Origin: Chelatococcus sambhunathii
GTDB lineage: Bacteria; Pseudomonadota; Alphaproteobacteria; Rhizobiales; Methylopilaceae
NCBI GenBank assembly: GCA_031316315.1
Contig: JADBEO010000006.1
Span: 1-64,000, forward strand
Length of the DNA stretch: 64,000 nt
Direction of reading: 5' to 3'
The notes under the pieces are model-generated. The model made no database searches, was not told the DNA's origin, and saw only the letters and a program-made list of their open reading frames with translations. Shown here in pieces: positions 29,829-62,616 of this stretch (its first letter is position 1; the number at the start of each line of letters is the position of its first letter). Both the position numbers and the translations under genes were made by a program.

Positions 29829-29919
29829 GCGCGGCGGGGGCGTCACCTGCCGGACGCCGCTGCGGAACCTATTCCGCGCGGCGCCGGTTGTGCTCGCGGA
29901 TCACGAGGAGCGTGAAGGC

Positions 29920-30729: not shown

Positions 30730-30754
30730 CGCTGTCCGATCGGAATGGCACAGT

Positions 30755-30902
30755 CGTCATGCCCGGACTTTGATCCGGGCGTCCATCTATAAGGAACTCG
30801 AACATTCCGAGTTCCTCTCCAAAGAGGCGGAGTCGGAAACATCCGACTTCACTGGCGCGTCCGCGCCCCGATAGACCCCCGGGTCAAGCCCCGGGTGACG
30901 AA
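30755..30902. repeat. Intergenic repeat, left copy flanking ligD-ku
   Basis: About 148 bp beginning CGTCATGCCCGG and ending CCCCGGGTGACG, so its ends are inverted with respect to each other. Inside are two hairpin-like units sharing GGAAACATCCGACTTC. A homologous copy in the same orientation lies at 34395-34539. It also falls between the convergent stops of the first ku and ligD and may act as a terminator. Confidence 0.75.
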
Positions 30903-30920
30903 GCGTTTCGGGCGATACTC

Positions 30921-33416: not shown

Positions 33417-33419
33417 CGC

Positions 33420-41346: not shown

Positions 41347-42543
41347 TCACACCGTTCGGTCCACGCCGCTGACGCCGGGCGCCGCGCCGCGCGCATAGGC
41401 GGCGGCGACGGGAGCGACGTCCTCGATCTCTTCATTCGCTGGCGAGCCGCCGTGACCGGCGTCCTCGAAAGCCCATTGCTGCTGGCGGCCGTCCTTGAGC
41501 TGGAAGGCGAGACCGCCCTGCCCCAGCTGGAATCCTGCCTGCTCAAGCGTGCGCGACAGCTCGCGCGCGTCGTTTCGCAGCATGTCGAGCGTCTCGGGAC
41601 GTTCAACGATCAGCCGGGTGGCGACACGCCCGTCATGGCCGATGTCGAGCCGCACGTCGACGCGGCCGAGCTCCGACGGATCGAGCCGCACCTCGAATCG
41701 GGTGCGCCGGGAGCTGGCGTGATCGGCGATCTGGTTGGCCACCTGAACGGCGGCCGCCTGCGCGCCGGAAACCTGTCCGGACGCCGCGCCCGGCGCCGAG
41801 GGCGTCGCCGGCGCGGCCGAGGTCTGCAGCGTCTGGATCCGATCCGGCTGCTGGGACTGCCGCGTGACTTCCGAACCGCCGGCGTCGAGCTTCGGCGCGG
41901 GCTTCGTCTCGGTCTCCGGCTGTTCCTTCTCGAACGCACTGAACGCGGCGGTCTGCGCCGCCGCCTTGGCGGCGTCCGTCTTCTCCGCGCCCTTGCCGCC
42001 CTCCTTCTTGCCGGCCTTTCCGGCCTCGGCGCCCGCCGCCAGGGAGGCGGCGGGTCCGGACGGCGCTTGCGCTCCTGAGGCGCCGCCGATCTTGACGTCG
42101 ACGCTCTCGCTTTCGCCCTTCAGGCTGACGATTCCGGCTGCGGCGAGCGCTTGGGCCGTCGCGCCGGCCTGGCCGACCGCTCCGGGGCCGACCGCGAGAC
42201 CCTGCGCCTGCAACTGCAGAGCCGTGGCGAGATTCGCCACGTTCGACTTGCCGGCCGTGACGCCGCCTTCGGGCTTCTGGCCGGTCGAGGCGAGCTTGCT
42301 TCCCGATCCAGGCGGCGTCTCGCCGGCCGCGCCTGCGCCCTGGAGCGCGAAAGGCAGGCCGACGAGGCCCGCCGACACGGCGTCCGGCGCCGACTGTTCC
42401 GCCTGAGGCTTCGCGTCGTCCGCCTCTTCGGCCTGCGCGCCCACAAGCGTGTCGAAGCCCTCGCCGCGCGCGGACGACTTGCCGGCGTGCGACGGGGCGC
42501 GGTGAGGCGCGGGGGCGGGCGCGTTAACGGAGCTTGACGACAC
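41347..42543 (-). CDS. fliK: Flagellar hook-length control protein FliK
   Basis: 398 residues from a GTG. The N-terminal 280 residues are Ala/Gly/Pro/Gln-rich and disordered, as in all FliK rulers. The C-terminal about 90 residues form the Flg_hook domain: RTRFEVRLDPSELGRVDVRLDIGHDGRVATRLIVERPETLDMLRNDARELSRTLEQAGF. FliK sets hook length and switches export specificity through FlhB. A perfect sigma-54 promoter lies about 40 bp upstream of the start. flgD follows at 9 bp. Confidence 0.9.
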   Translation of the reverse strand: MSSSSVNAPAPAPHRAPSHAGKSSARGEGFDTLVGAQAEEADDAKPQAEQSAPDAVSAGLVGLPFALQGAGAAGETPPGSGSKLASTGQKPEGGVTAGKSNVANLATALQLQAQGLAVGPGAVGQAGATAQALAAAGIVSLKGESESVDVKIGGASGAQAPSGPAASLAAGAEAGKAGKKEGGKGAEKTDAAKAAAQTAAFSAFEKEQPETETKPAPKLDAGGSEVTRQSQQPDRIQTLQTSAAPATPSAPGAASGQVSGAQAAAVQVANQIADHASSRRTRFEVRLDPSELGRVDVRLDIGHDGRVATRLIVERPETLDMLRNDARELSRTLEQAGFQLGQGGLAFQLKDGRQQQWAFEDAGHGGSPANEEIEDVAPVAAAYARGAAPGVSGVDRTV

Positions 42544-42578: not shown

Positions 42579-42594
42579 TGCAACCGCCGTGCCA
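42579..42594 (-). promoter_or_regulatory. Sigma-54 promoter of fliK-flgD
   Basis: On the minus strand TGGCACGGCGGTTGCA matches the -24/-12 consensus at every key base, with the invariant GG and GC separated by exactly 10 bp. The predicted start, about 12 bp downstream, is about 25 bp before the fliK GTG. This is the class III flagellar promoter type that needs an activator such as FlbD. Confidence 0.85.
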
Positions 42595-42666: not shown

Positions 42667-42685
42667 CCCGGCAGAAACTGCCGCG
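42667..42685. promoter_or_regulatory. FlbD (ftr-like) enhancer palindrome
   Basis: CCCGGCAGAAACTGCCGCG is a near-perfect inverted repeat. On the minus strand its core CGGCAGTTTCTGCCGGG is almost identical to the palindrome in the flhA upstream region. Its centre is about 95 bp upstream of the sigma-54 -12 element, where FlbD sites lie in Caulobacter late flagellar promoters. A weaker half-like copy occurs at about 42644-42666. Confidence 0.65.
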
Positions 42686-42798: not shown

Positions 42799-42850
42799 AT
42801 CACCGAACGTAATGTCTGCGATGACGGGTCAGTCGCGTGTGAGAGTATCT

Positions 42851-43126
42851 ATGACCGAAATGCCTCGCGGACGAACCAAATACGTGATCGGCCCGGACGG
42901 CAGTCCGCTGACGATCGCTGATTTGCCCCCGTCCGACACCAAGCGCTGGGTCATCCGCCGCAAGGCGGAGGTCGTGGCCGCCGTCCGAGGCGGGCTCTTG
43001 AGCCTTGAGGAGGCCTGCGCCCGCTACACCCTCACGGTCGAGGAGTTCCTGTCGTGGCAGGCTTCGATCGACCGTCACGGCCTTGCCGGCCTCAGGACCA
43101 CGCGGATCCAGCAGTATCGCGCCTGA
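42851..43126 (+). CDS. sciP: CtrA inhibitor SciP (DUF1153)
   Basis: 91 residues from the ATG at 42851; in-frame starts at 42812 and 42860 are alternatives. The family core is complete: KYVIGPDGSPLTIADLPP, KRWVIRRKAEVVAAVRGGLLSLEEACARYTLTVEEFLSWQ and the conserved end GLAGLRTTRIQQYR. The helix-turn-helix (SLEEACARYTLTVEEFLSW) binds DNA and CtrA, blocking CtrA-driven transcription in swarmer-phase cells. It lies between fliK-flgD and the fliF operon, with CtrA-like boxes upstream, suggesting feedback. Confidence 0.93.
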   Translation: MTEMPRGRTKYVIGPDGSPLTIADLPPSDTKRWVIRRKAEVVAAVRGGLLSLEEACARYTLTVEEFLSWQASIDRHGLAGLRTTRIQQYRA

Positions 43127-43204: not shown

Positions 43205-43245
43205 TTAACGACCCGTTTACCATGCGCCGGGCAATTCTTGCCGGG
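43205..43245 (+). promoter_or_regulatory. CtrA box plus FlbD-type palindrome, fliF operon promoter
   Basis: TTAA-N7-TTTACC at 43205-43221 is a near-consensus CtrA site. It is followed directly by ATGCG and the palindrome CCGGGCAATTCTTGCCGGG (43227-43245). The fliF GTG is 40 bp further. In Caulobacter, CtrA activates fliF and FlbD represses it through an ftr site near the transcription start; the arrangement here is the same. Confidence 0.7.
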
Positions 43246-43284
43246 TGGGGCGGCCCCGAGGCCGAACCGCTTCGGGGAACGTCG

Positions 43285-45012
43285 GTGCAGGGCATCATCC
43301 AAGTCTTCCGGTCTTTCGGCGCCGGGCGCGTCGCGGCGATGGGCGTGGTTGCGCTCGCGCTGGTGGGTTTCTTCGCCTTCGTCATCATCCGCTTCACCCA
43401 GCCGGCGATGGCGCCGCTGTTCACCGACCTGTCGCCGCAGGACGCAGCCGCGGTCGTCAAGGAGCTCGACCAGCAGAACGTGCCCTACGAGCTGCGCACG
43501 GACGGCGCCGGGATCCTCGTCCCGAAGGAGCAGGTCGCGAAGCTCCGCATGAAGCTCGCCGAGCAGCGCCTTCCGACCGGCGGCTCGGTCGGCTGGGAGA
43601 TCTTCGACAAGGGCGACGGTTTCTCGGCGACGAGCTTCGTCCAGAACGTCAATCACCTGCGCGCGCTCGAGGGCGAGATCGCCCGCTCGATCAAGTCGCT
43701 CGACCGGGTGGCGTCGGCGCGGGTGCATCTCGTCACGCCGGAACGGCCGCTGTTCACGCGCGACGCGCCGCAGCCCTCGGCCTCGATCGTGATCCGCGCG
43801 CGCGGCGAGCTCAGCCAGGGCGAGGTCCGTGCGATCCGCCACCTCGTCGCCTCCGCCGTGCAGGGGCTGAAGCCCGAGAAGGTGTCGCTCGTCGACGAGG
43901 GCGGGCGCCTGCTCGCCGACGGCGCCGAGGGCGACGACGCCGCCGACGCGGCGAGCGACGAACGCGGCTTGGCGCTGGAGAAGCGTCTGCGCGAGCGCGT
44001 CGAATCGATCGTCGGCCGCATCGTCGGCGCGGACCGCGCCCGCGTGGAGGTCCGCGCCGAGATCGACCGGACCAAGTCCACGCAGACCTCCGACAAGTTC
44101 GATCCCGAAAGCCGCGTCGCCCGCTCGACCCAGACCCGGGAGGAGGCCTCCCAGTCGCAGGAGCAGGCCGAGCAGCAGGTCTCCGTCGCGAACCAGATCC
44201 CGAACCCGCAGGCCGGCCAGAACCCGCAGCAGGGTCCGAAGGAGCAGACGAACAAGAACGAGGAGGTCGTCAACTACGAGATCTCCCGCGTCACCCGGAC
44301 CGAGACCCAGGACGGCGGCCGGATGAAGCGCCTCTCGGTCGCGGTGCTCGTGGACGGGGTCTACACCCGCCAGCAGAACGGCGACATGACCTATGCGCCC
44401 CGCCCGCAGGAGGAGCTCGACCGGATCGGCGCGCTGGTCCGCGCCGGCGTCGGCTTCGATGCGAGCCGCGGCGACACCGTCGAGATCGTGAACCTGCGCT
44501 TCGCGGACATTCCCGGCCAGACCGCCGACGCCGGCGGCGAGCCCTGGTTCGACTTCACCAAGGCCGACATCATGCGCGCCGTCGAGCTCGGCGTGCTGGC
44601 CCTGCTGAGCGTGCTCGTGATGCTTCTGGTCGTCCGGCCGGTCCTGCGGAAGGCGCTCGAAGCCGCTCCGCCGCCCGCGCCCGCCGCCGCGCCGGCGCTG
44701 ACGGCCGCCGAGGCGGCGGCTCGTGGCGGCGTGATGGGCGCCGACGGCATGGTCACGATGCCGGACGGCGCGGTCTTCCAGGCGACGGACGAGAACGGCG
44801 CGCCGCTCCTGACCGCGCCGGGCGTGCGCGTCCTGCAGGCCGACGCCGGCCCGGTAGTGGTCGGTCCCGACGGCGCCGCCCGGCGGCTGGCGGCGGTCGA
44901 GGTCGCCGGCAAGGTGAAGGCCGAGTCGCTCGAGAAGATCGGCGAGATCGTCCGCGCCAATCCGTCCGAGAGCGCCAATCTGATCCGTCAGTGGATGCAG
45001 GAGCCCGCGTAG
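43285..45012 (+). CDS. fliF: Flagellar MS-ring protein FliF
   Basis: 575 residues from a GTG at 43285 with GGGGAA just upstream; the longer frame upstream would run through the promoter. FliF forms the inner-membrane MS ring. TM1 is about 17-37 (VAAMGVVALALVGFFAFVII). The periplasmic part has the YscJ-like modules (MAPLFTDLSPQDAAAVVKELDQQNVPYEL, VASARVHLVTPERPLFTRDAPQPSASIVI). A Gln/Asn-rich disordered loop is in the middle. TM2 is about 430-455 (ELGVLALLSVLVMLLVV). The cytoplasmic FliG-binding end is NLIRQWMQEPA. It opens the fliF-G-H-N-flbD operon. Confidence 0.95.
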   Translation: MQGIIQVFRSFGAGRVAAMGVVALALVGFFAFVIIRFTQPAMAPLFTDLSPQDAAAVVKELDQQNVPYELRTDGAGILVPKEQVAKLRMKLAEQRLPTGGSVGWEIFDKGDGFSATSFVQNVNHLRALEGEIARSIKSLDRVASARVHLVTPERPLFTRDAPQPSASIVIRARGELSQGEVRAIRHLVASAVQGLKPEKVSLVDEGGRLLADGAEGDDAADAASDERGLALEKRLRERVESIVGRIVGADRARVEVRAEIDRTKSTQTSDKFDPESRVARSTQTREEASQSQEQAEQQVSVANQIPNPQAGQNPQQGPKEQTNKNEEVVNYEISRVTRTETQDGGRMKRLSVAVLVDGVYTRQQNGDMTYAPRPQEELDRIGALVRAGVGFDASRGDTVEIVNLRFADIPGQTADAGGEPWFDFTKADIMRAVELGVLALLSVLVMLLVVRPVLRKALEAAPPPAPAAAPALTAAEAAARGGVMGADGMVTMPDGAVFQATDENGAPLLTAPGVRVLQADAGPVVVGPDGAARRLAAVEVAGKVKAESLEKIGEIVRANPSESANLIRQWMQEPA

Positions 45013-45016
45013 CGTC

Positions 45017-46057
45017 ATGGCGGCCCAAGCTCTCGCCACCTCCGGATCGACCCAACCCGCCCGCAAGCTTTCGGGCGTCGAGCGGGCCGCGATCGTCATG
45101 TTCGCGCTCGGCGACGAACACGGCGCGCAGGTCTGGGAGGAACTCGACGACGACGAGGTCCGCGACCTGTCGGCCGCGATGTCCAACCTCGGAGCGATCG
45201 ACGCGATCACCGTGGAAGGCCTGCTGGTCGACTTCGTCTCGAAGCTGTCGGCGGCCGGGTCGCTGGTCGGCAACGCCGAGTCGACCGAACGGCTGCTCTC
45301 GCAGTTCCTGCCGAGGGACCGCGTGGGCCAGATCATGGAGGAGATCCGGGGTCCGGCTGGGCGCAACATGTGGGAGAAGCTCTCCAACGTTCAGGAGACG
45401 GTGCTCGCGAATTACCTGAAGAATGAGTACCCGCAGACCGTCGCCGTGGTGCTCTCGCGCATCCGCGTCGAACAGGCCGCGCGCGTTCTGGCCATCCTCC
45501 CCGAGGAGTTCGCGGTGGACGTCGTGCGGCGCATGCTCGCGATGGATTCCGTCCAGAAGGACATCCTCGAGCGCATCGAGAAGACCTTGCGCGTCGAGTT
45601 CATGGCCGGCCTCTCTCAGGCCACCCGCCGGGACTCGCACGAGCAGATGGCGGAGATCTTCAACTCCTTCGACCGACAGACCGAGACGCGGTTCCTGACA
45701 AAGCTCGAGGAGGCGTCGAAGGAGTCCGCCGACCGCATCAGGCAGCTGATGTTCACCTTCGACGACCTCGGCAAGCTGGACAGCGCCGGCATCCAGTCGG
45801 TGCTGCGCGACGCGCCGCGCGAAAAGCTCGCGGTCGCGCTCAAGGGCGCGAGCCAGACGATGCGCGCCTTCATCATGGGCAACATGTCGAGCCGCGCCGC
45901 CAAGATGCTCGCAGACGACGTCGAGGCGATGGGCCCGGTGCGCCTGCGCGACGTCGACGAGGCGCAGATGATTATCGTGAACGTCGCCAAGGACCTGGCG
46001 TCGAACGGCCAGATCACGATCACGAAAAACAAGGGGGAGGAAGAGCTTGTCTACTGA
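45017..46057 (+). CDS. fliG: Flagellar motor switch protein FliG
   Basis: 346 residues, 4 bp after fliF. FliG couples torque generation to rotor switching. Recognisable are the N-terminal ERAAIVMFALGDEHGAQVWEELDDDEVRDLSAAMSNLG, the middle EYPQTVAVVLSRIRVEQAARVLAILPEEF (with the EHPQ-like motif as EYPQ), and the C-terminal charged torque helix FDDLGKLDSAGIQSVLRDAPREKLAVALKGAS...RAAKMLADDVEAMGPVRLRDVDEAQ. Binds FliF at its N-terminus and FliM/FliN through the middle. Confidence 0.96.
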   Translation: MAAQALATSGSTQPARKLSGVERAAIVMFALGDEHGAQVWEELDDDEVRDLSAAMSNLGAIDAITVEGLLVDFVSKLSAAGSLVGNAESTERLLSQFLPRDRVGQIMEEIRGPAGRNMWEKLSNVQETVLANYLKNEYPQTVAVVLSRIRVEQAARVLAILPEEFAVDVVRRMLAMDSVQKDILERIEKTLRVEFMAGLSQATRRDSHEQMAEIFNSFDRQTETRFLTKLEEASKESADRIRQLMFTFDDLGKLDSAGIQSVLRDAPREKLAVALKGASQTMRAFIMGNMSSRAAKMLADDVEAMGPVRLRDVDEAQMIIVNVAKDLASNGQITITKNKGEEELVY

Positions 46058-46090
46058 CGACGTTCCGGCCCCGCGGCCCGGGGTCGACGC

Positions 46091-46756
46091 ATGAGCGGCG
46101 CCCCCGTCCGTTTCCTGTTCGACACCGACTTCGGCGCGCCGAAGCCGACCAAGACCGGGCCCGGCGCGGTCGGGCTCGCCGACCACGAGGCGGCGCTGGC
46201 CGAAGCCGAGGCGTCCGGATACCGGCGCGGCGAGGCGGACGGCCGGCGCGCGGCCCGAGAGGCCGACGCCGCGCGCCTGACGGCCGCGATCGAATCTCTC
46301 GGCGGGCGGCTCGCGGTCGCGATCGCCGACGCCGACGGCCGCGTCGCCGAGATCGAGCGCGACGCGGCGGCCCTCGCCCTCGCCTTCGCGCGCAAGCTCG
46401 CCGGCGCGGCCGTGGCGCGCTTCCCGCTCGCCGAAATCGAGGCGGCGGCGAACGCCTGCTTCGGAGAATTGAAGTCCGCTCCGCATCTCGTCGCGCGCGT
46501 CGCGCCGGACTTCGTCGAAGCCGTGCGCGTGTCGCTTTCCGAAGCCGCCCACCAGCGCGGCTTCGCCGGCCGCCTGATCGTGCTCGGCGACCCGGAGGTC
46601 GCGGAGGGCGACGCGCGGCTCGAATGGGCCGACGGAGGCGTGATCCGCGACGCAGGAGCCGTCGAGCGCGCGATAGACCGCGCGCTGACCCTGAGATTTG
46701 GAGCGGTCGGCGCCCCGACAGCGCCGACGGACGCCACGGAAGGAACCGAGCCATGA
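46091..46756 (+). CDS. fliH: Flagellar assembly protein FliH
   Basis: 221 residues. FliH is the stator of the FliI ATPase in flagellar export. Sequence is poorly conserved, but the layout fits: N-terminal SGAPVRFLFDTDFGAP, a Gly-spaced helix (EAEASGYRRGEADGRRAA, the typical G-x3-G FliH pattern), a long Ala/Glu/Arg coiled coil (ALALAFARKLAGAAVARFPLAEIEAAANACF) and a C-terminal E/V-rich domain ending DARLEWADGGVIRDAGAVERAI. It is 33 bp after fliG, and its stop overlaps the fliN start. Confidence 0.88.
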   Translation: MSGAPVRFLFDTDFGAPKPTKTGPGAVGLADHEAALAEAEASGYRRGEADGRRAAREADAARLTAAIESLGGRLAVAIADADGRVAEIERDAAALALAFARKLAGAAVARFPLAEIEAAANACFGELKSAPHLVARVAPDFVEAVRVSLSEAAHQRGFAGRLIVLGDPEVAEGDARLEWADGGVIRDAGAVERAIDRALTLRFGAVGAPTAPTDATEGTEP

Positions 46757-47109
46757 GCGGTCGCAGCGGAGGAGATCGATCGGTTCCCCTGCCGGAACTC
46801 GATCACGCGGGGGACGTCGCGCTGGTGGACCAGGGCGGCGAGGCCGACGGGGAGTCGAAAGGCGCCGGCGACCTCGAGGCCGTCTTCGACGTGCCGGTCG
46901 CGGTCTCGGCGGTGCTCGGGCGCGCCAAGCTCGAGGTCCGAAATCTGATGAAGCTCAAGCCGGGCGCCGTCATCGAACTCGACCGGAAGATCGGCGAGGC
47001 GATCGACATCTACGTCAACGACCGGCTCGTCGCGCGCGGCGAGGTGGTGCTCGTCGAGGACCAGCTCGGCGTCACCATGACCGAAATCATCAAGCCCGAT
47101 CGGGCCTGA
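46753..47109 (+). CDS. fliN: Flagellar motor switch protein FliN
   Basis: 118 residues; the ATG overlaps the fliH stop (ATGA). The first 45 residues are acidic and variable, and the C-terminal about 75 are the SpoA/FliN domain: FDVPVAVSAVLGRAKLEVRNLMKLKPGAVIELDRKIGEAIDIYVNDRLVARGEVVLVEDQLGVTMTEI. FliN forms the C ring with FliM and FliG; fliM is not in this window. flbD follows 20 bp on. Confidence 0.95.
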   Translation: MSGRSGGDRSVPLPELDHAGDVALVDQGGEADGESKGAGDLEAVFDVPVAVSAVLGRAKLEVRNLMKLKPGAVIELDRKIGEAIDIYVNDRLVARGEVVLVEDQLGVTMTEIIKPDRA

Positions 47110-47129
47110 ACAAGGAGAGGAGAGCGGTT

Positions 47130-48488
47130 ATGCGCCTCACCATCGTCGGCCATCTCAAGGGCCAGCTCACCGCCGCGACCCGCATCGCGATGAACCGCGG
47201 CGCCGCGGTCACCCACGCCGAATCCGTCGAGCAGGCGCTTCGGACGCTACGGGCCGGCCGCGGCGCGGACCTCATCATGTGCGACGTCGCGCTCGACGTC
47301 CGCGAACTGGTCTCCAGCCTCTCCGCGGAGCGCTTCCATGTGCCGGTCGTCGCCTGCGGCGTCGACAACGACACGCGCGCGGCGGTCGACGCGATCCGGG
47401 CCGGCGCCAAGGAGTACATCCCGCTGCCCCCCGATCCCGAGCTGATCGGCGCGGTGCTCGCGGCGGTCGCCGACGACAGCCGGGACATGGTCTTCCAGGA
47501 CCCGTCGATGATCTCGCTGGTGCAGCTCGCGACCCAGATCGCCGCGTCGTCCGCAAGCGTGCTGATCACCGGCGAGAGCGGCTCGGGCAAGGAGATGCTG
47601 GCCCGCCTCGTTCACGAGAAGAGCCCGCGCGCCAAGGCGCCGTTCGTGTCGGTCAACTGCGCGGCCATTCCGGAACAGCTGCTCGAAAGCGAGCTGTTCG
47701 GCCATGAGAAAGGCGCCTTCACCGGCGCGTCGGCGCGGCGCATCGGCAAGTTCGAGGAGGCCTCCGGCGGCACGCTGCTGCTGGACGAAATCTCCGAGAT
47801 GGACGTGCGCCTGCAGGCGAAGCTTTTGCGCGCGCTGCAGGAGCGCGTAATCGACCGAGTCGGCGGCGGCAAGCCGGTGCCGGTCGACATACGGGTGATC
47901 GCGACCTCGAACCGAGCGCTCGCCGATGAGGTGCGCAAGGGGACGTTCCGCGAGGACCTGCTCTACCGCCTCAACGTCGTGAACCTGAAGATCCCGCCGC
48001 TGCGCGAGCGGCCGGCCGACGTGCTGGCGCTCGCGGCGCATTTCGCCAGCAAGTACGCCCGCATCAACGGCTTCCCGATCCGCCCGCTGTCCACGGAAGC
48101 GCGCGCCGAACTGGCCCGCCAGCGCTTTCCGGGCAACGTCCGCGAGCTCGAGAACACGATCCACCGCGCAGTGCTGCTCGCGGTCGGGAGCGAGATCGGC
48201 GCCGACGCGATCCGCACCCCGGACGGCGCTCCCGTCTCGACCGCGCGCGGCGCGGCCGCGCAGGCCGTCGAAACCGCGGAGCAGATCGCCCGCTCCTTCG
48301 TCGGCAAGACGCTCGCCGACGTCGAGCGTGACCTGATCTTCGACACGCTCGGTCATACCCGCGGCAACCGCACCCATGCCGCCAACATCCTCGGCATCTC
48401 GATCCGGACGCTGAGGAACAAGCTCAACCAGTATGACGACGAAGGCTTCGCCGTGCCCCCGCCCCAGGCGGGCGTAGCGGCGGCGTGA
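47130..48488 (+). CDS. flbD: Sigma-54-dependent flagellar transcriptional regulator FlbD
   Basis: 452 residues from an ATG preceded by AAGGAGAGGAG. An N-terminal receiver-like domain (1-120) keeps an aspartate at position 52 (LIMCDVALD) but has lost the N-terminal acidic pair (MRLTIVGHLKG) and the usual K-P near its end (EYIPLPP), so normal phosphorylation is doubtful, as for Caulobacter FlbD. The AAA+ domain has Walker A GESGSGKE (148-155), the sigma-54 contact GAFTGA (195-200) and Walker B TLLLDEISEM. A Fis-type HTH is C-terminal (RGNRTHAANILGISIRTLRNKLNQY). It should activate fliK-flgD. Confidence 0.93.
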   Translation: MRLTIVGHLKGQLTAATRIAMNRGAAVTHAESVEQALRTLRAGRGADLIMCDVALDVRELVSSLSAERFHVPVVACGVDNDTRAAVDAIRAGAKEYIPLPPDPELIGAVLAAVADDSRDMVFQDPSMISLVQLATQIAASSASVLITGESGSGKEMLARLVHEKSPRAKAPFVSVNCAAIPEQLLESELFGHEKGAFTGASARRIGKFEEASGGTLLLDEISEMDVRLQAKLLRALQERVIDRVGGGKPVPVDIRVIATSNRALADEVRKGTFREDLLYRLNVVNLKIPPLRERPADVLALAAHFASKYARINGFPIRPLSTEARAELARQRFPGNVRELENTIHRAVLLAVGSEIGADAIRTPDGAPVSTARGAAAQAVETAEQIARSFVGKTLADVERDLIFDTLGHTRGNRTHAANILGISIRTLRNKLNQYDDEGFAVPPPQAGVAAA

Positions 48489-48499
48489 GGGCGGCGGGA

Positions 48500-48673
48500 A
48501 TGGACGAAACCCGGATCGACTACGCGCGGGCGCTCGCCGAGGCGGCGGATCACTTGCGGACCTTCGCGGAGCTGGGCCGGCGCGACCGCGATCTGGCGGA
48601 GGCCTGTCCCGACCAGTTCGCGCTGATCGCCTCGGCCTGCTATCCGGTCGCCGCCCTCAATCCGGCGCGCTGA
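48500..48673 (+). CDS. Small hypothetical protein downstream of flbD
   Basis: 57 residues from the ATG at 48500, 11 bp after the flbD stop; a GTG overlapping that stop (48485) is also possible. The sequence MDETRIDYARALAEAADHLRTFAELGRRDRDLAEACPDQFALIASACYPVAALNPAR looks like a real acidic/helical mini-protein with two cysteines, not a shadow frame. No family recognised. Its position suggests it is the last gene of the fliF operon. Confidence 0.45.
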   Translation: MDETRIDYARALAEAADHLRTFAELGRRDRDLAEACPDQFALIASACYPVAALNPAR

Positions 48674-48683
48674 CCCGGCGCGC

Positions 48684-49928
48684 TCACGCCGGCGCGGTCT
48701 CTCCCACCACCCGGTTCCGGCCGAGGCGCTTGGCGTCGTAGAGGCGCTTGTCGGCCTTGTCGAGCAGCCCGCGCAAGTCGCCCGCGCCATAGGCTGAGCT
48801 TGCGACGCCGACGCTGACCGTCACGGGCCGGCCGTCGAGCGGCTGGACCTCGGTCGCGACGGCGACGCGCAGGCGGTCGGCGATCTCCAGCGCTTCCGGA
48901 TGGTCGAGACCGCGCAGCAGGATCGCGAACTCCTCGCCGCCGTAGCGAAACACCGTGTCGCCGTCACGGACGTGCCGGGCGAGCGTGAGGCCGACCGCGC
49001 GCAGCACCGCGTCGCCGGCGGCGTGGCCGTACTGATCATTGATCGCCTTGAAGCGGTCGACGTCGGCCATGGCGACCGTGATCGGGCGGCCGTCGGGCGA
49101 CTTGCGCTCCAGCCATTCCCGGCAGGTCTGCTCGAACGCCGCGCGGTTCTTGACGCCGGTCACCTCGTCGACGAGCGAGCGCGCCAGCAGGTCCTCGTAG
49201 CGGTTCCGATAGGTGAGCGCCTGGAAGATGTCGGCGAGCGAGCGCCGCTTCGACGGGGCCGGCTCGCCGAAGGACAGGTAGAGCGCGACAAGCGCGCTGT
49301 AGACGGCGGCGGCCCCCATCTTCGCGACCCAGCCGCCGAGCAGCGCCGAGAACGGCGTGCCCGTCACCCAGTTCAGCACCGGATAGAACATCAACTGGTC
49401 GAAGGTCAGCACGACCGCTGAGGCGACGAAGGCGGAGGCGAGCACGTTGCGCTTCAGCAGACGCGCCATCCGCTCGTAGAGCATGATCAGCGCGATGCAG
49501 TCGACGAACAGCAGCAGCGTGCCCCACACCATCAGGATGCCGATCTGGTCGAGGAAGGCCAGATCGGGCGCGTAGCCCGGCATTTTCACGGCGGTCTGGA
49601 AGCGCAGCACGAGCGCCAGCACGACGAGCAGGATGTTGCCGATCAGCAGGCCGTAGATCGGCTGCCGCACCACCTCCGCATCCTCGCGGATGTAGAGCAG
49701 CAGGAACATCATCAGCTTGCCGGAGAACAGCACGGTCGAGCCGGGCGACAGCAGGCCGAACGGAAGCTCGATGAAGAACACCGCGGCGAGGTAGGTCTCG
49801 AGGAAGTGCATCACGCCGAGCGCGCACACGAAGAGGCCGACGCCGTAGGACTTGCGCGCGGCGAGCAGCGCGGTCATCACGCCGAAATAGATCAGCGCCT
49901 GGATCGAGAGGAGGAGAACGCCGCTCAT
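48684..49928 (-). CDS. Membrane-bound diguanylate cyclase (GGDEF)
   Basis: 414 residues. The first about 225 contain six or seven hydrophobic segments forming an integral membrane sensor. The C-terminal about 170 residues are a GGDEF domain: DEVTGVKNRAAFEQ, DVDRFKAINDQYGHAAGDAVLRAV and the active site FRYGGEEFAI. An inhibitory I-site is present, RDGD, five residues before GGEEF, so product feedback is expected. It makes cyclic di-GMP, which controls motility and attachment. It converges on the flagellar operon end and may influence motility, but the ligand of the sensor is unknown. Confidence 0.92.
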   Translation of the reverse strand: MSGVLLLSIQALIYFGVMTALLAARKSYGVGLFVCALGVMHFLETYLAAVFFIELPFGLLSPGSTVLFSGKLMMFLLLYIREDAEVVRQPIYGLLIGNILLVVLALVLRFQTAVKMPGYAPDLAFLDQIGILMVWGTLLLFVDCIALIMLYERMARLLKRNVLASAFVASAVVLTFDQLMFYPVLNWVTGTPFSALLGGWVAKMGAAAVYSALVALYLSFGEPAPSKRRSLADIFQALTYRNRYEDLLARSLVDEVTGVKNRAAFEQTCREWLERKSPDGRPITVAMADVDRFKAINDQYGHAAGDAVLRAVGLTLARHVRDGDTVFRYGGEEFAILLRGLDHPEALEIADRLRVAVATEVQPLDGRPVTVSVGVASSAYGAGDLRGLLDKADKRLYDAKRLGRNRVVGETAPA

Positions 49929-50032
49929 GCCTGCCCGAAAGCCCTTTCGATCCCGCGCGTGGCGCCGCGAAGCGGCTGTTAAACCACCCGGTCCGTTGCG
50001 GTTTTAGACGATGGACCCCCTGGTGCGCCAGA

Positions 50033-50536
50033 TCAGCCGCGCGCGCGGCGCAACCGGCGGCCGATCAGGACCGCGAGCAGCGCGAGCGCCGTGAAGAAGA
50101 CGATGTTGAACCAGGGGATCACCGTGTCCGCCGGATCCCATCGCCGGACGCTGACGGCGTTCGGGAACCACGAGAAGATGTCGAAGCGCCAGCCATACTT
50201 CGTGATGAGCGCGACGCCCTTCTCGCCGCCGATCGACGAGGCGACGGCCTGGACGTCGGCGGAGTTGAACTTGAAATAGAACGGGAAGCCCCAGCGCGTG
50301 TCCTCGTTGCGATAGACGTGCGGTTTCCTGGTCTCGATGTCTTCGGCGTAGATGAAATAGACGTCGCGGTTCGCCGCCGGGTTGGAGCCGTCCACCGGCT
50401 TGCCGGAGAAGTCGACGCGCCGGACCTCCGTGTTGACGATCCTGACCACGTCGTGGCGCGGCAGCACGTAGTGCAGGAAGGCGCCGAGCGGCGCGAGGAT
50501 GACGAACGCGACGACGGCGAGGATGCGGATGGACAT
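50033..50536 (-). CDS. DUF1523 membrane protein
   Basis: 167 residues from the ATG at 50536. One N-terminal membrane segment (ILAVVAFVILAPLGAFLHYVLP) and one near the C-terminus (WFNIVFFTALALLAVLI) bracket a periplasmic domain with conserved HDVVRIVNTEVRRVDF, YFIYAEDIETRKPHVYRNEDTRWGFPFYFKFNSADVQA and KYGWRFDIFSWFPNAVSVR. This is the DUF1523 family, function unknown. Single leftward gene. Confidence 0.82.
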   Translation of the reverse strand: MSIRILAVVAFVILAPLGAFLHYVLPRHDVVRIVNTEVRRVDFSGKPVDGSNPAANRDVYFIYAEDIETRKPHVYRNEDTRWGFPFYFKFNSADVQAVASSIGGEKGVALITKYGWRFDIFSWFPNAVSVRRWDPADTVIPWFNIVFFTALALLAVLIGRRLRRARG

Positions 50537-50616
50537 GCGGGTGCTCGACGCCTCGATCGGACGCGCCGCTTCCCGGCGCTCACAACCGCATATAGCGTCG
50601 ACGACGTGATTCCGCG

Positions 50617-51678
50617 CTACGCCACCTTGGCGCGGCGCGCGGCTTTCGAGGCCTGCCTGAGCTGTTCGAACTTTTGGGCCGTCTCGCGCACCAGACGCTC
50701 GATCTTCCGGCGCTCCCACCACGACGCCTCGGAGGGATCGAACACCGACGCGCGGAACGGCTTCGGCGGGCACAGCTCGGCCCAGCTCATCGCGAAGAAC
50801 CTTTGGGCGAACGCCTCGTTGCTCTCGGCGTAGCGCGCGCGGATGCGCGCCACGTTCTCCTCGGTCAGCGCGACATGCGGCGTCGCCTCCCACCCCAAGC
50901 GGACGTATCGCCGCTTGAAGCCGTTGCAGACCGGCGCGAAGCCCGGAAGATCCTGCAGTCCCTCCCCGCCGATCCGGCGCATCACCTCCTGCGCGGCGAA
51001 CACGGATTTCACGCCAGCGTTGGGGTTCCTGAGGCTCGTCCTGACCAGCGGCGCGTCGGCCGGGATCCCGCAACGACGGATGAAGTCGTCCTCCAGCCCC
51101 GCCGCGGCCGCGCGCTCGAACGGGATCGCCTCGAGCTCCACCCGCGGCTCGTCGATATAGGTCTTGAGATAGCGCAGCGGCTCCCCCCGTCCCCGCCGGT
51201 CGGCCTCCTCGACAAACTCGTCGAAGGTCATGAGCCCGGCGAAGCGCCGCTGGCTGTGGACATACCAGCTGTTCAGCCAGGCGGGCTGGTCGCGCACATA
51301 GGCGAGGACGACCACGCGATAGCCGCGCAAGTCGAAGAAGGCGAGCACCCGGTCAAGCGCCTGAGGGTCTGCGAGCGAGCGCGAGAACATCTCGCTCGAC
51401 AGCAGGATGTTCTTCTCAGCCCTCTTGGCGACCTCGTCGATCTCCGGCCAGAGCTGCGCCTTCGCCTTGAGTTCGCCGTCCGGCCGGATCTCGTTGCAGG
51501 TCGCGAGCTCCATGTGGTTGCGCGCCGGCTTGCCGGTCTCGTCGCGCAGCATGGGAAAGAACAGCCCGCAGGCATCGAGCGTCGCGAGATTGCCGCGGAT
51601 GAAGTGCTTGAGAGAGCTGGAGCCGGTCTTGTACGGCCCGACATGAATATAGGCGGTCGGTCGGCGGCCTTCGGTCAT
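50617..51678 (-). CDS. Sulfotransferase-like protein (third copy)
   Basis: 353 residues from the ATG at 51678. The P-loop is YIHVGPYKTGSSSLKHFI, the PAPS 5'-phosphosulfate site of bacterial sulfotransferases; the second site is VVVLAYVRDQPAWLNSWYVHSQR. The rest is helical, with a basic C-terminus (RQASKAARRAKVA). It resembles the 14320-15279 protein in its KTxS loop and overall length. The acceptor is unknown; surface polysaccharide is likely. Confidence 0.75.
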   Translation of the reverse strand: MTEGRRPTAYIHVGPYKTGSSSLKHFIRGNLATLDACGLFFPMLRDETGKPARNHMELATCNEIRPDGELKAKAQLWPEIDEVAKRAEKNILLSSEMFSRSLADPQALDRVLAFFDLRGYRVVVLAYVRDQPAWLNSWYVHSQRRFAGLMTFDEFVEEADRRGRGEPLRYLKTYIDEPRVELEAIPFERAAAAGLEDDFIRRCGIPADAPLVRTSLRNPNAGVKSVFAAQEVMRRIGGEGLQDLPGFAPVCNGFKRRYVRLGWEATPHVALTEENVARIRARYAESNEAFAQRFFAMSWAELCPPKPFRASVFDPSEASWWERRKIERLVRETAQKFEQLRQASKAARRAKVA

Positions 51679-51776
51679 CGATCGTCCCGTGAAGCGGCGC
51701 GCAGGCGCGGATCGTCGCCGGCGCGGCAGGCCGGCGTCAGACAGCTGCGAGCCTCGCGCGGTATGGAGCGTATGCC

Positions 51777-52400
51777 ATGAGCAGCCTTGCAAGTCACGGA
51801 CTGCGGGTCGCGGCCAGCGCGGGCGTCGGGCTCGCGGCGGGCGCCGTGGCGCGGCTCGCAGCGGCGCCGGAGATCGCGACGGCGATCGGCTGGGACGCAG
51901 CCGCCCTCGCCTATGCCGGCCATGTCTGGGCGAGCCTGACGCCCGCGACGGCGGACGAGCTCCGCGCGCTGTCGAGACAGGAGGACGAAGGCCGCTGGGC
52001 GATCACGCTGATCCTGACGGCGGCGGTCGCGGCGAGCCTGTTCGCGATCTTCGACATGGTCACGGCGAAGTCGAGCGGCGCCGTCATGGCGCTCGCCGCG
52101 GCGACGATCCTGTGCTCCTGGACGCTGCTGCACACGGTGTTCGCGGTTCACTACGCCCATCGCTGCTTCGCCGGCGGCGGCGACAAGGCCGGCCTCGACT
52201 TTCCCGGCGAAGCGCCGCGCTTCGTCGACTTCGCCTATTACGCCTTCACCATCGGCATGACGTTCCAGACGTCAGACGTCGACACGCAAAGCAGCGAGAT
52301 GCGCACCCTCACCCTCGTTCACGGCGCGGCGTCTTTCGTGTTCAACACCGTGATCATCGCGATCAGCGTAGGGCTGGCGAGCGGATTGCTGTCGGGCTGA
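51777..52400 (+). CDS. DUF1345 membrane protein
   Basis: 207 residues with about five hydrophobic segments. The DUF1345 signature is visible: TLLHTVFAVHYAHRCF and then LDFPGEAPRFVDFAYYAFTIGMTFQTSDVDTQSSEMRTLTLVHGAASFVFNTVIIAISVGLASG. The family, of unknown function, looks like a small channel-type membrane protein (YYAFTIGMTFQTSD resembles a pore loop). The gene starts 98 bp from the divergent sulfotransferase gene. Confidence 0.85.
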   Translation: MSSLASHGLRVAASAGVGLAAGAVARLAAAPEIATAIGWDAAALAYAGHVWASLTPATADELRALSRQEDEGRWAITLILTAAVAASLFAIFDMVTAKSSGAVMALAAATILCSWTLLHTVFAVHYAHRCFAGGGDKAGLDFPGEAPRFVDFAYYAFTIGMTFQTSDVDTQSSEMRTLTLVHGAASFVFNTVIIAISVGLASGLLSG

Positions 52401-52462
52401 CGGCTCCTCGTCGCGCCCGGACGCACGAGGCGCAAGGCCGCTCCCGCGTCCGCCTGCCGGCC

Positions 52463-53047
52463 TTACACGCGAGCGAGCTTGCGCCTGACCTTGCCGAGAT
52501 ACGCGGCGCGGGACTTCGGAGTGGAGCGGTCCATGCCGTAGTGGGCGAGGAACAGGGTCTTGGCGCCCGGGGCGCAGATCGCGCGAATTCCGCTCAGGAT
52601 GGTGCGGCGGCCCGGATGGCCCACCAGATGCGACTCCCAAAGCGACGCGCCGCAGGTAGTGACCACCGCAAGCAGCCGGATGTTGGTCATCAAAGCGACG
52701 ATGCCGCCGCCGGCCGCCATCCTGAAGGCGACGTCGAGCGCCCAGACGCGATCGAACCAGCCTTTCAGAATGGCGGGCAGGCCGCACCACCACGTCGGAT
52801 AGACGAACACGACGCCCTCGGCCCAACGGACCGCCTCGATATGGGACCGAAGCTCCGGATCGGACGGCTCTCCGTCGTAATAGAGGCTGCGCTCGCCGGC
52901 GCGCATGACCGGGTCGAAACCGAGCGCGTAGAGATCAATCAGTCTAAGCTCGTGGCCCTTCGCGGAGAGCGTCGACATCACCTCGTCGCGCACCGCCCCG
53001 CCGAAGCTTTCCGGCACGGGATGGGCATGGACGACCAGGATGCGCAT
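52463..53047 (-). CDS. NAD(P)H:quinone oxidoreductase-like flavoprotein
   Basis: 194 residues from the ATG at 53047. The flavodoxin-like fold of the NQO1/MdaB group is clear: MRILVVHAHPVPESFGGAVRD, LRLIDLYALGFDPVM, and VVFVYPTWWCGLPAILKGWFDRVWALDVAF with the FMN/FAD-contacting YPTWW loop. It would reduce quinones or similar electrophiles with NAD(P)H in the cytosol. Divergent from flhA. Confidence 0.88.
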   Translation of the reverse strand: MRILVVHAHPVPESFGGAVRDEVMSTLSAKGHELRLIDLYALGFDPVMRAGERSLYYDGEPSDPELRSHIEAVRWAEGVVFVYPTWWCGLPAILKGWFDRVWALDVAFRMAAGGGIVALMTNIRLLAVVTTCGASLWESHLVGHPGRRTILSGIRAICAPGAKTLFLAHYGMDRSTPKSRAAYLGKVRRKLARV

Positions 53048-53182
53048 CAGAAGCGGTTTGTCACGCGCACGAGCTCGCCTTAGAGGGGCCGCTCGACAGT
53101 ATGACTCCGTCCTCGGTTGTACGCGACCGGTGACATGCGACAACGCCCTCAGACCGTGTCCGGCGTATGAGATAACGAACCT

Positions 53183-53223
53183 GTAACCCCCCGTTAACCA
53201 TGCGCCCGGCAATTTCTGCCGGG
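53183..53223 (+). promoter_or_regulatory. CtrA box plus FlbD-type palindrome, flhA promoter
   Basis: GTAA-N7-TTAACC (53183-53199) is a near-consensus CtrA box. The perfect palindrome CCCGGCAATTTCTGCCGGG (53205-53223; 7-bp arms) follows at the same spacing as before fliF. Over these 41 bp the two upstream regions align without gaps, with only about seven differences. The flhA ATG is 26 bp further. Confidence 0.7.
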
Positions 53224-53248: not shown

Positions 53249-55414
53249 ATGTCGGACGTGACGGTGACGGGCGGAACGCCGCCGCTTCGACCGCTGAAGG
53301 CGTCCGCCGCCGACGGCCCGAAGGGCCTGACGCTGCCGCCATGGGCGGAATCCGCCTGGGGCGTGCTGCGCCGCGGCGAGATCGGGCTCGCGCTCGGCGT
53401 CCTCGTCATCCTGTGCGTGCTGATCGTCCCGCTGCCGGCGCTGCTGCTCGACCTCCTTCTCGCGGTCTCGATCATCCTGTCCGTCCTCATTCTCATGACG
53501 GCGCTGTTCATCGAGAAGCCGCTCGAATTCTCCGCCTTCCCGACCGTGCTGCTGGTCGCGACCATGCTGCGCCTGTCGCTCAACCTCGCCTCGACGCGCC
53601 TCATCCTCGCGCACGGCCACGAGGGCACCGACGCCGCCGGCCACGTCATCGAGGCCTTCGGCAACTTCGTGATGGGCGGCAACTTCGTGATCGGCGTGAT
53701 CGTGTTCGCAATCCTCGTGATCGTGAACTTCGTCGTCATCACCAAGGGTTCGGGCCGCATCGCGGAGGTCGCGGCGCGCTTCACCCTCGACGCCATGCCC
53801 GGCAAGCAGATGGCGATCGACGCCGATCTTTCGGCCGGCCTGATCGACGAGGCGACCGCCAAGACCCGCAGGAAGGAGCTCGAGGACGAATCGACCTTCT
53901 TCGGCGCCATGGACGGCGCCTCGAAGTTCGTCCGCGGCGACGCGATCGCGGGCCTTCTGATCGTGTTCGTCAACGTGCTCGGCGGCATGGTCATCGGCAT
54001 CGCCCAGAACGGCATGGGCTTCGCGGACGCGGCGCATTCCTACACCCTGCTGTCGATCGGCGACGGCCTCGTCAGCCAGATTCCGGCGCTGATCGTCTCG
54101 ACCGCCGCCGGCATGCTGGTTTCGAAGGCCGGCGTCTCGGGCTCGGCCGACCGCGCGCTCGTAAAACAGCTGTCGGGCTATCCGAAGGCGCTCGGCCTCG
54201 CCGCGGCCGTGATGAGCGTGATGGCGCTGCTGCCCGGCATCCCGCTGATCCCGTTCCTCGGCCTCGCCGCCGGCGCCGGCTGGCTCGCCTGGCGGGCCGA
54301 GAAGCAGCATCGGATCGCCGACGCCGAACGTGTGGCGCGGCTCGCGACCGAGGCCAAGGGCGAAGCGCCCGCCGCCGAGGAGCCGGTCACCGCCGCGCTC
54401 AAGATGGACGACGTCAAGATCGAGCTCGGCTACGCGTTGCTGCCCCTGGTCGACGCTTCCAAGGGCACCGACAAGCTCACCGAGCAGATCAAGGCGCTCC
54501 GCCGCACCATCGCCGGCGAGATGGGCTTCCTGATGCCGCAGGTGCGCCTCGTCGACAATCTGCAGCTCACCCCGAACGGCTATTCCGTGAAGGTGAAGGA
54601 GGTCGAATCCGGAACCGGCAGCGTCTATCCCGCGCAGTTCATGGTGATGGACCCGACCGGCGCCCAGGTGACGCTGCCGGGCGTCCACACCATCGAGCCG
54701 ACCTTCGGACTTCCCGCCACTTGGGTCGACGCGTCTCTCCGCGAGGAGGCCAACCTGCGCGGCTACACGGTGGTCGACGCCACCACGGTGCTCTCGACGC
54801 ATCTGTCGGAAATCGTGAAGGCCAATATGCCGGACCTGCTCACCTACGCCGAGGTGACGAAGCTCCTGAAGGAACTGCCGAAGGAGCAGCAGAAGCTGGT
54901 CGAGGACATCATCCCGAGCCAGATCTCGACCACCACCGTGCAGCGCGTCCTGCAGCTGCTGCTCGCGGAGCGCGTCTCGATCCGCGACCTTGGCGGCATC
55001 CTCGAAGGGATCGCCGAGGCCGTCGCCTGGACGCGCGCGCCGGGCCAGATCGTCGAGCACGTCCGCTCGCGGCTGTCGCGCCAGATCTGCGCGCAGAACC
55101 AGGCGATGGGCGGCTACGTGCCGCTGATCGCGCTGTCGCCGAAATGGGAGCAGGCCTTCGCGGAAGCGATCGTCGGGACCGGGGAGGAGAAGAGCCTCGC
55201 GATGGCTCCGTCGAAGCTGCACGAGTTCATCGCCGGCGTGCGCGACGCTTTCGAGGAGGCCGCGAAGATCGGCGAGGCGCCGGTGCTGCTGACCTCCGCG
55301 CAGGCGCGGCCCTTCGTGCGCTCCATCATCGAGCGCTTCCGCAACCAAACCGTGGTGATGTCGCAGAACGAGGTGCATCCTCGCGCGCGACTGAAGACGG
55401 TCGGGAGCGTGTGA
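53249..55414 (+). CDS. flhA: Flagellar biosynthesis protein FlhA
   Basis: 721 residues. FlhA is the core of the flagellar type III export gate. Eight membrane segments lie in residues about 45-345, and the FHIPEP-region signature appears as FPTVLLVATMLRLSLNLASTRLIL. The cytoplasmic FHIPEP region starts after about 350, with ELGYALLPLVD, GEMGFLMPQVRLVDNLQLTPNGYSVKVKEVE and LLAERVSIRDLGGILEGIAEAV. It is separated from the fliF operon by about 5 kb of unrelated genes but has the same promoter module. Confidence 0.96.
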   Translation: MSDVTVTGGTPPLRPLKASAADGPKGLTLPPWAESAWGVLRRGEIGLALGVLVILCVLIVPLPALLLDLLLAVSIILSVLILMTALFIEKPLEFSAFPTVLLVATMLRLSLNLASTRLILAHGHEGTDAAGHVIEAFGNFVMGGNFVIGVIVFAILVIVNFVVITKGSGRIAEVAARFTLDAMPGKQMAIDADLSAGLIDEATAKTRRKELEDESTFFGAMDGASKFVRGDAIAGLLIVFVNVLGGMVIGIAQNGMGFADAAHSYTLLSIGDGLVSQIPALIVSTAAGMLVSKAGVSGSADRALVKQLSGYPKALGLAAAVMSVMALLPGIPLIPFLGLAAGAGWLAWRAEKQHRIADAERVARLATEAKGEAPAAEEPVTAALKMDDVKIELGYALLPLVDASKGTDKLTEQIKALRRTIAGEMGFLMPQVRLVDNLQLTPNGYSVKVKEVESGTGSVYPAQFMVMDPTGAQVTLPGVHTIEPTFGLPATWVDASLREEANLRGYTVVDATTVLSTHLSEIVKANMPDLLTYAEVTKLLKELPKEQQKLVEDIIPSQISTTTVQRVLQLLLAERVSIRDLGGILEGIAEAVAWTRAPGQIVEHVRSRLSRQICAQNQAMGGYVPLIALSPKWEQAFAEAIVGTGEEKSLAMAPSKLHEFIAGVRDAFEEAAKIGEAPVLLTSAQARPFVRSIIERFRNQTVVMSQNEVHPRARLKTVGSV

Positions 55415-61595: not shown

Positions 61596-61612
61596 GTAAC
61601 CCTTCGTTTACC
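61596..61612. promoter_or_regulatory. CtrA-like box between fliI and ctrA
   Basis: GTAA-N7-TTTACC on the plus strand (equally GGTAAA-N7-TTAC on the minus strand). It lies 45 bp before the fliI ATG and 306 bp before ctrA. On the plus strand it is followed by GAGGCGCCCAATTA, which resembles the sequence after the fliF and flhA boxes, so it might also drive rightward transcription. Confidence 0.5.
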
Positions 61613-61917: not shown

Positions 61918-62616
61918 ATGCGCGTTCTTCTTATTGAAGACGACAAGTCGACGGCGATGAGCATCGAGCTCATGCTGAAGTCCGAGAGCTTTTACGTCGA
62001 TACGACGGAGCTTGGCGAAGAAGGCATCGACCTCGGCAAGCTCTACGACTACGACATCATCATGCTGGATCTGAACCTCCCCGACATGTCGGGTTACGAG
62101 GTTCTCCGCACCCTCCGCGTCGCGAAAATCAAGACGCCGATCATGATCCTGTCCGGCCTCGCCGGCATCGAGGACAAGGTCCGCGGCCTCGGCGTCGGCG
62201 CCGACGACTACATGACCAAGCCGTTCCACAAGGACGAGCTGGTCGCGCGCATCCACGCCATCGTCCGCCGCTCGAAGGGCCACGCCCAGTCGGTGATCTC
62301 GACCGGCGACCTGATCGTGAACCTCGACACCAAGACGGTCGAGGTCGGCGGCGCCCGCGTGCACCTCACCGGCAAGGAATATCAGATGCTCGAGCTTCTG
62401 AGCCTGCGGAAGGGCTCGACGCTCACCAAGGAGATGTTCCTCAACCATCTCTACGGCGGCATGGACGAGCCGGAGCTCAAGATCATCGACGTCTTCATCT
62501 GCAAGCTGCGCAAGAAGCTCGCCAACGCCACCAACGGCAAGAACTACATCGAGACCGTCTGGGGCCGCGGCTACGTGCTGCGCGAGCCGAGCGAGGACAT
62601 GCGCGCCGCCGGCTGA
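61918..62616 (+). CDS. ctrA: Cell cycle response regulator CtrA
   Basis: 232 residues, OmpR family. The receiver has IEDDKST, the phospho-acceptor Asp51 in [18 protein letters not shown], and [24 protein letters not shown]. The C-terminal winged helix ([37 protein letters not shown], then [18 protein letters not shown] and [10 protein letters not shown]) is nearly the same as in all alphaproteobacterial CtrA proteins. It ends MRAAG, so the hydrophobic ClpXP-type tail is Ala-rich but short. CtrA controls flagella, division and replication initiation genes. Confidence 0.97.

Follow-up and report, generated by a model that had tools for sequence, protein, structure and literature searches.

A putative CtrA- and FlbD-responsive promoter element shared by early flagellar operons of Chelatococcus sambhunathii and related Methylopilaceae

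Introduction

Why do the promoters of fliF and flhA, which lie 10 kb apart in Chelatococcus sambhunathii, carry nearly the same 41-bp element, and which regulators might read it? The stretch of DNA analyzed here, called the window, covers bases 1–64000 of a contig of 130,587 bp (JADBEO010000006.1, C67 below) from a genome of 4.1 Mb and has a GC content of 69%. A first-pass annotation had described the element as a CtrA box followed by a palindrome of FlbD type and had proposed a negative loop, in which early flagellar genes are turned on by CtrA and shut off by FlbD, the last regulator encoded in the fliF operon. From the sequence comparisons presented here we consider it likely that the element serves early flagellar operons as a two-input promoter, responding to CtrA and FlbD and repressed by the latter.

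The Caulobacter fliF promoter, which joins CtrA with repression by FlbD at ftr4, is said to have been described in 1994 by Benson, by Mullin and by Wingrove and Gober. FlbD of this organism represses fliF at ftr4 and activates the middle genes from ftr sites (PMC3930126). It represses class II genes and activates those of class III, and without FliX the expression of fliF-lacZ goes up and that of fliK-lacZ goes down (PMC3096577). We found no published description of the module or of the minC site reported below in a search of titles and abstract openings, outside which most of the subscription literature lies, including original FlbD papers.

Results and Discussion

The sites before fliF (43205–43245) and flhA (53183–53223) are identical at 34 of 41 positions and align without gaps, which agrees with the roughly seven differences reported before. 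No comparable match extends into the flanks, and the next-best 41-bp match to either site within the window reaches at most 24 identities. Each site begins with a CtrA box on the plus strand, TTAA-N7-TTTACC at 43205–43221 for fliF (kept in the family) and GTAA-N7-TTAACC at 53183–53199 for flhA, both differing by one base from TTAA-N7-TTAA. The palindrome GGCA-N5-TGCC starts 8 bp after the box in both cases: at fliF it occupies 43229–43243 with the core GGCAATTCTTGCC at 43230–43242 and is a GGGCA variant, and at flhA the palindrome CGGCAATTTCTGCCG lies at 53207–53221 with the core GGCAATTTCTGCC at 53208–53220. The box and palindrome architecture was thus read correctly in the first pass. Its description of the boxes as the known CtrA target holds only by analogy. 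Full CtrA boxes in Caulobacter mostly have their 5' position at -35 of the promoters they activate (PMC4287350). With the boxes here presumably placed at -35 as well, the palindrome would lie at about -22 to +4, over the -10 element and the start of the fliF and flhA core promoters, and a protein bound there should block the polymerase.

In order to find further copies we scanned the genome with the pattern TAAN7TTNACCNTGCNNCNGGCAN5TGCC, allowing up to three mismatches and using the reversed pattern as control. Only three sites were detected, before fliF, flhA and flgB, compared to none for the control. The flgB site, which the first-pass annotation did not know of, is located outside the window at C67:104436–104472 on the minus strand, 51 kb away. 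It lies 56 bp upstream of the flgB reading frame, has a divergent fliO-like reading frame on its other side and heads the genes flgB-flgC-fliE-fliQ-fliR-flhB. The FlgB fragment, lacking its last two residues, gave no Pfam match and FlgB as its top NCBIfam model (117.7 bits, cut-off 142). A genome scan as suggested before thus showed the expected enrichment at early flagellar genes.

FlbD itself is encoded by the fifth and last gene of the fliF operon fliF-fliG-fliH-fliN-flbD (43285–48488, plus strand), again as first annotated: flbD at 47130–48488 reaches 805.8 bits with the NCBIfam model NF050807 (cut-off 750), and the sigma-54 activator it encodes has the GAFTGA motif. It is preceded by fliF at 43285–45012 (TIGR00206, 309 bits, cut-off 129.75; Pfam YscJ_FliF; probable GTG start), fliG at 45017–46057 (TIGR00207, 236.3 bits, cut-off 226.7), a fliH-like gene for flagellar assembly protein H at 46091–46756 (NF004690, 149.4 bits, under the curated cut-off of 201; no Pfam match) and fliN at 46624–47109 (TIGR02480, 97.7 bits, cut-off 84.05), whose real start is probably downstream of the start of the reading frame. 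The gene flhA follows at 53249–55414 on the same strand (TIGR01398, 908.6 bits, cut-off 772.1). The limits of the operons headed by fliF, flhA and flgB are predictions.

The FliF protein of the window shares 94% identity with its counterpart in an uncultured Methylopila metagenome-assembled genome, followed among named relatives by Hansschlegelia and Methylopila with 64–66%. As Methylopila is placed in the Methylopilaceae and Hyphomicrobiales, these were taken as the family and the order of the compared genomes. Every one of the 18 family genomes had composite matches (control 0/18). Of 29 loci that were fetched from family genomes other than the present one, 27 are at early flagellar genes, namely fliF (8), flhA (9) and flgB/fliO (10), and two at none of these. 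In the whole order 177 of 297 genomes showed a match, compared to 29 for the control, and 30 fetched loci belong to flhA (13), flgB/fliO (5), fliF (1) or none of these (11). When the presence of FlbD was called at E ≤ 1e-150 in the 297 genomes, the composite was found in 139 of the 162 FlbD-bearing genomes and in 38 of the 135 others (Fisher p 6e-25); the control pattern did not follow FlbD (20/162 with and 9/135 without it, p 0.12). Twelve FlbD-negative genomes have at least two composite matches, several of these genomes being incomplete and one (G066) being a repeat, whereas G151 and G258 look complete.

The spacing of the two elements was analyzed in 80 named fliF loci, a biased sample as they are the best 80 of 223 relatives. 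In all 80 an exact palindrome is present no further than 130 bp from fliF on its upstream side, and the gap between the nearest TTWACC and GGCA is 19 bp in 65, 18 bp in seven, 8 bp in five and 7 bp in one of them; two have no TTWACC, one of which is ended early by the contig end. The 18–19 bp and the 7–8 bp gaps differ by approximately one helical turn. In 30 FlbD-bearing genomes of the class outside the order, one changed base being allowed per arm, the order of the elements at fliF varied: the box precedes the palindrome in nine (gap 7–8 bp), the palindrome precedes the box in 12 (gap 2–6 bp, mostly 5 bp) and neither arrangement was seen in nine, among which L273 and L277 are counted as untestable due to a misplaced start and a contig end. 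Two assignments were made by eye (L279, palindrome first; L285, box first) and are included in these totals. Because of this mixed order there is no single set arrangement across the Alphaproteobacteria. The two orders follow lineages, each with its own narrow gap range, with L281, L284 and L285 on one side and L257, L263–L264, L268–L272, L274, L276 and L279–L280 on the other. The flanks of 30 FlbD loci from the class (L175–L204) contain an exact palindrome in 6 of 30 cases and no pattern.

Such spacing could also mean that FlbD binds as a partner of CtrA and activates or times the promoter rather than repressing it. The tight distance of 8 bp here and 7–8 bp in nine class genomes, its extension by one turn to 18–19 bp in 72 of the 80 named loci, and the palindromes upstream of the box in the class would all suit a partner. 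However, the palindrome here, reckoned in this comparison as spanning -35 to about +1, sits where a bound protein would hinder initiation, and the increased fliF-lacZ expression of Caulobacter without FliX fits a repression of class II genes by FlbD (PMC3096577), so that we regard a partner role without repression as unlikely.

Is the palindrome indeed the site of FlbD? Allowing one mismatch, CGGCAN5TGCCG occurs at 489 places in the genome (control 1307). As such one-mismatch copies are common in a GC-rich genome, we used exact sites, their position and their co-occurrence as evidence. Of 20 exact copies 14 fall within likely genes according to a crude reading frame test. The other six were judged intergenic, five having no covering reading frame and the flhA site lying under antisense reading frames only, and they precede flhA, flgB/fliO, fliK/sciP, flgE, fliX/flgI and minC, the flgE copy also facing a divergent Glucose/Sorbosone-dehydrogenase gene. 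On contig C67 six of seven GGCAN5TGCC copies are in flagellar promoter regions and one is coding. Three exact copies inside reading frames, at C2:36405, C5:76879 and C52:14682 (L016, L020 and L027), encode GN(V/I/L)CRC, which we take to be the iron-sulphur motif of molybdenum hydroxylases; these copies are chance look-alikes.

The same palindrome was also found without a CtrA box beside sigma-54-like sites. The fliK-like hook-length control gene (41347–42543, minus strand; Pfam Flg_hook, 58.1 bits) is preceded by the sigma-54-type promoter TGGCACGGCGGTTGCA at 42579–42594 on the minus strand, the sole perfect consensus match in the 130-kb contig, and a palindrome like that of fliF and flhA occupies an enhancer position at 42669–42683, 96 bp upstream of the -12 element. 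Two palindromes, the nearer one with one mismatch, lie 97 and 111 bp upstream of a one-mismatch sigma-54 site at flgF, and one lies 95 bp upstream of a sigma-54-like site at flgE. In 16 of 16 fliX/flgI loci a sigma-54-like site with 2–3 mismatches was detected on the flgI strand 106–119 bp from the palindrome, for which reason this palindrome may serve flgI. By their position the palindromes at fliK, flgF, flgE and on the flgI strand thus fit enhancer elements of sigma-54 flagellar promoters. Sigma-54 matches with up to one mismatch are by themselves not significantly enriched in the window (2 found, 1.26 expected). On contig C67, with seven palindromes and six sigma-54 sites of up to two mismatches, about 0.01 pairs would be expected at 80–115 bp, and two of the six sites are paired. 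L065–L068, L070 and L099 carry a similar pair (84–115 bp) at the corresponding position upstream of fliF, where the gene is presumed to be fliK; a pair in L123, located on the plus strand, was left out of the fliK count. A sigma-54 -24/-12 element within the palindrome itself was ruled out by eye, the spacing being unfit.

Because of its co-occurrence with FlbD and its enhancer position at sigma-54-like sites, the palindrome is very probably the site of FlbD, which would repress where the palindrome covers CtrA-type core promoters and activate where it stands at enhancer distance from sigma-54 promoters. Another regulator, such as NtrC, NtrX, SciP or MucR, might bind it instead: NtrC, a relative of FlbD, works at sigma-70 promoters in Caulobacter (PMC12421884), and sciP lies directly upstream of fliF. 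Further, 39 order genomes were chosen for lacking FlbD, of which 23 gave a FliF match and 21 possess a true FliF after exclusion of L254 and L255 (partial matches of secretion-ring type). None of these 21 has an exact palindrome within 300 bp upstream of fliF, two show look-alikes with one mismatch and a CtrA-type box is present in one, but the sites come from a distant lineage, so that the missing palindrome is no clean control against other regulators. On the other hand, the presence of the palindrome tracks FlbD over 297 genomes, the published SciP motif GCGNC-N5-GNCGC differs from GGCA-N5-TGCC (PMC4287350), and the enhancer distance from sigma-54-like sites of flagellar genes is what an activator of the FlbD type would need, which makes a different regulator very unlikely. 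That the likeness results from a recent local promoter duplication or a leader-RNA hairpin without FlbD is hardly credible, even if both palindromes could form a short stem and the 41-bp identity is high, since the flanks lack a comparable match, each of the fliF, flhA and flgB sites turns up again at its own gene across the family, the third copy is 51 kb away, and the palindrome recurs beside sigma-54-like sites that have no CtrA box.

Several observations weigh against a CtrA- and FlbD-controlled promoter with FlbD as repressor. Only 21 of the 80 named fliF loci have a CtrA box (one mismatch at most) inside 330 bp, and therefore the palindrome is firmer than the box in the Bradyrhizobium-like majority. 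In 12 of the 30 FlbD-bearing class genomes the palindrome comes before the box, and blocking of the -10 element is no explanation there. The fliF genes of the FlbD-lacking genomes are distant (29–35% identity), so descent confounds this control. G151 and G258, fragmented genomes of 100% and 97% completeness, retain the flhA composite with no FlbD detected, and FlbD may be split or not needed there. Among genomes beyond the order, matches to the exact pattern stay close to chance (53/289, control 26/289), the fliK-type pair is present in six of the 80 named loci, 76 of which extend far enough upstream, and the flgE sigma-54-like site is weak with four mismatches. Finally, equating the palindrome with the Caulobacter ftr sites is an analogy of position and logic.

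Taking both sides together, we still favour the two-input promoter. The proposed on-and-off loop is supported by the enrichment of composite sites and by the Caulobacter precedent, and would work as follows. Phosphorylated CtrA would bind TTAA-N7-TTWACC in the -35 region and turn on fliF-fliG-fliH-fliN-flbD, flhA and flgB-flgC-fliE-fliQ-fliR-flhB. FlbD, the product of the fliF operon, would then bind GGCA-N5-TGCC over the -10 and start region and shut the early promoters off after a signal from the basal structure, which is transmitted via FliX in Caulobacter. From palindromes about 95–111 bp upstream of sigma-54 promoters it would turn on the next class, fliK, flgF, flgE and probably flgI. 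Binding, activation and repression by both regulators, the FliX signal and the start site are all predicted in this model. As in Caulobacter crescentus, CtrA would activate early genes and FlbD, with FliX as partner, would repress fliF and activate middle genes via ftr-like sites and sigma-54 (PMC3930126, PMC3096577); different from there, three early operons have in common a box and a palindrome with an 8-bp gap, an arrangement found again across the family and in part of the order. In the fla2 system of Rhodobacter sphaeroides, fliF2 and further early flagellar genes likewise carry CtrA sites close to the start, whereas flbD is absent in the Rhodobacteraceae shown and fla2 genes do not use RpoN, so that a second site is missing (PMC6180460).

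A further search for the palindrome followed after 3–8 bp by TTAA-N7-TTAA, without mismatch, gave 31 matches spread over all 18 family genomes (control 0/18). Thirty of these loci were fetched, G008:C16 not being among them: 16 (from 16 genomes) sit between flgI and the FlbD-partner gene fliX, 13 (from 13 genomes) directly before minC, and L286 elsewhere. In the genome studied here the flgI/fliX site is located at 1993–2027 of L029 (C62:5092–5126) and the minC site has its palindrome at 2057–2071 of L017 (C3:80456–80470; see also L300), the gaps between palindrome and box being 4–6 bp at fliX and 5–7 bp at minC over the 16 and 13 of 18 family genomes. FliX is encoded at 2073–2486 of L029 (Pfam FliX, 108.1 bits, cut-off 25), the NCBIfam FliX models matching under their cut-offs. 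No sigma-54-like site with up to three mismatches was found on either strand 60–140 bp from the minC palindrome in 13 of 13 loci. In 12 of 13 the minC site is followed by a further box, CAACGCTTCGTTAACC, with at most two changes. As the palindrome arms were fixed by the search, their conservation at minC is visible only from the 13 of 18 genomes. A serB terminator at this site was rejected, a serB match adjoining 3 of the 13 loci and none being found in 10.

Among 32 genomes of other families MinC was detected in eight, four with and four without FlbD, and in none of them is there an exact palindrome within 400 bp upstream of minC. One-mismatch look-alikes occur in two FlbD-bearing genomes, at -134 in G027 and at -220 in G131, and seven of the nine minC loci have a CtrA-type box (one mismatch at most). 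This family therefore seems to have added the FlbD-type site at minC. A direct action of CtrA on minC and minD, namely repression of minCD, is also known from Sinorhizobium meliloti, where the available text mentions no FlbD-type palindrome (PMC4433202), in contrast to 13 of 18 family genomes here. Whether FlbD also controls division in Methylopila-like bacteria, with flagellar assembly setting the level of the Min inhibitor via FliX and FlbD, appears evenly balanced. FliX and FlbD reportedly link flagella to cytokinesis in Caulobacter. A filamentous phenotype is described in this connection (PMC3096577), and the Z-ring of Caulobacter is not placed by Min (PMC4433202).

One family genome (G010; loci L045, L062 and L295), listed as 100% complete, deserves separate mention. 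It has no detected flbD and no FliF match at its fliF-type site, and retains this site, the flgB/fliO site (with a FlgB match of only 22 residues) and the minC site. It has perhaps lost its flagellum recently, in which case it would be a natural test of the decay of the minC site.

Other genes of the window complete the picture. Directly upstream of fliF lies sciP for the CtrA inhibitor (42812–43126, plus strand; NF051866, 143.8 bits, cut-off 100), and ctrA is found at 61918–62616 on the plus strand (NF045991, 418 bits, cut-off 350), with a CtrA-type box GTAA-N7-TTTACC without palindrome at 61596–61612 (plus strand) between it and fliI on the minus strand. As sciP, flbD and ctrA are all in the window, CtrA, its antagonist and FlbD are all at hand. 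The reading frames at 29860–34298 presumably are two Ku genes flanking a LigD gene.

Conclusion

In summary, the CtrA box and palindrome module with its set spacing is probably a new case of a kind of circuit known from Caulobacter. It would turn the on-then-off logic of early flagellar genes into a promoter module that can be searched for in Methylopilaceae and part of the Hyphomicrobiales, and it gives a short DNA signature of the FlbD regulon for genomes without experiments. The minC sites would be new and are candidates for connecting flagellar assembly with the Min system. If they work, flagellar assembly would be tied to septum placement and the coupling through FlbD and FliX could be tested through 13 bp, and the minC palindrome would connect flagella and cytokinesis directly at the DNA level, a coupling that Caulobacter displays without a Min-placed Z-ring.

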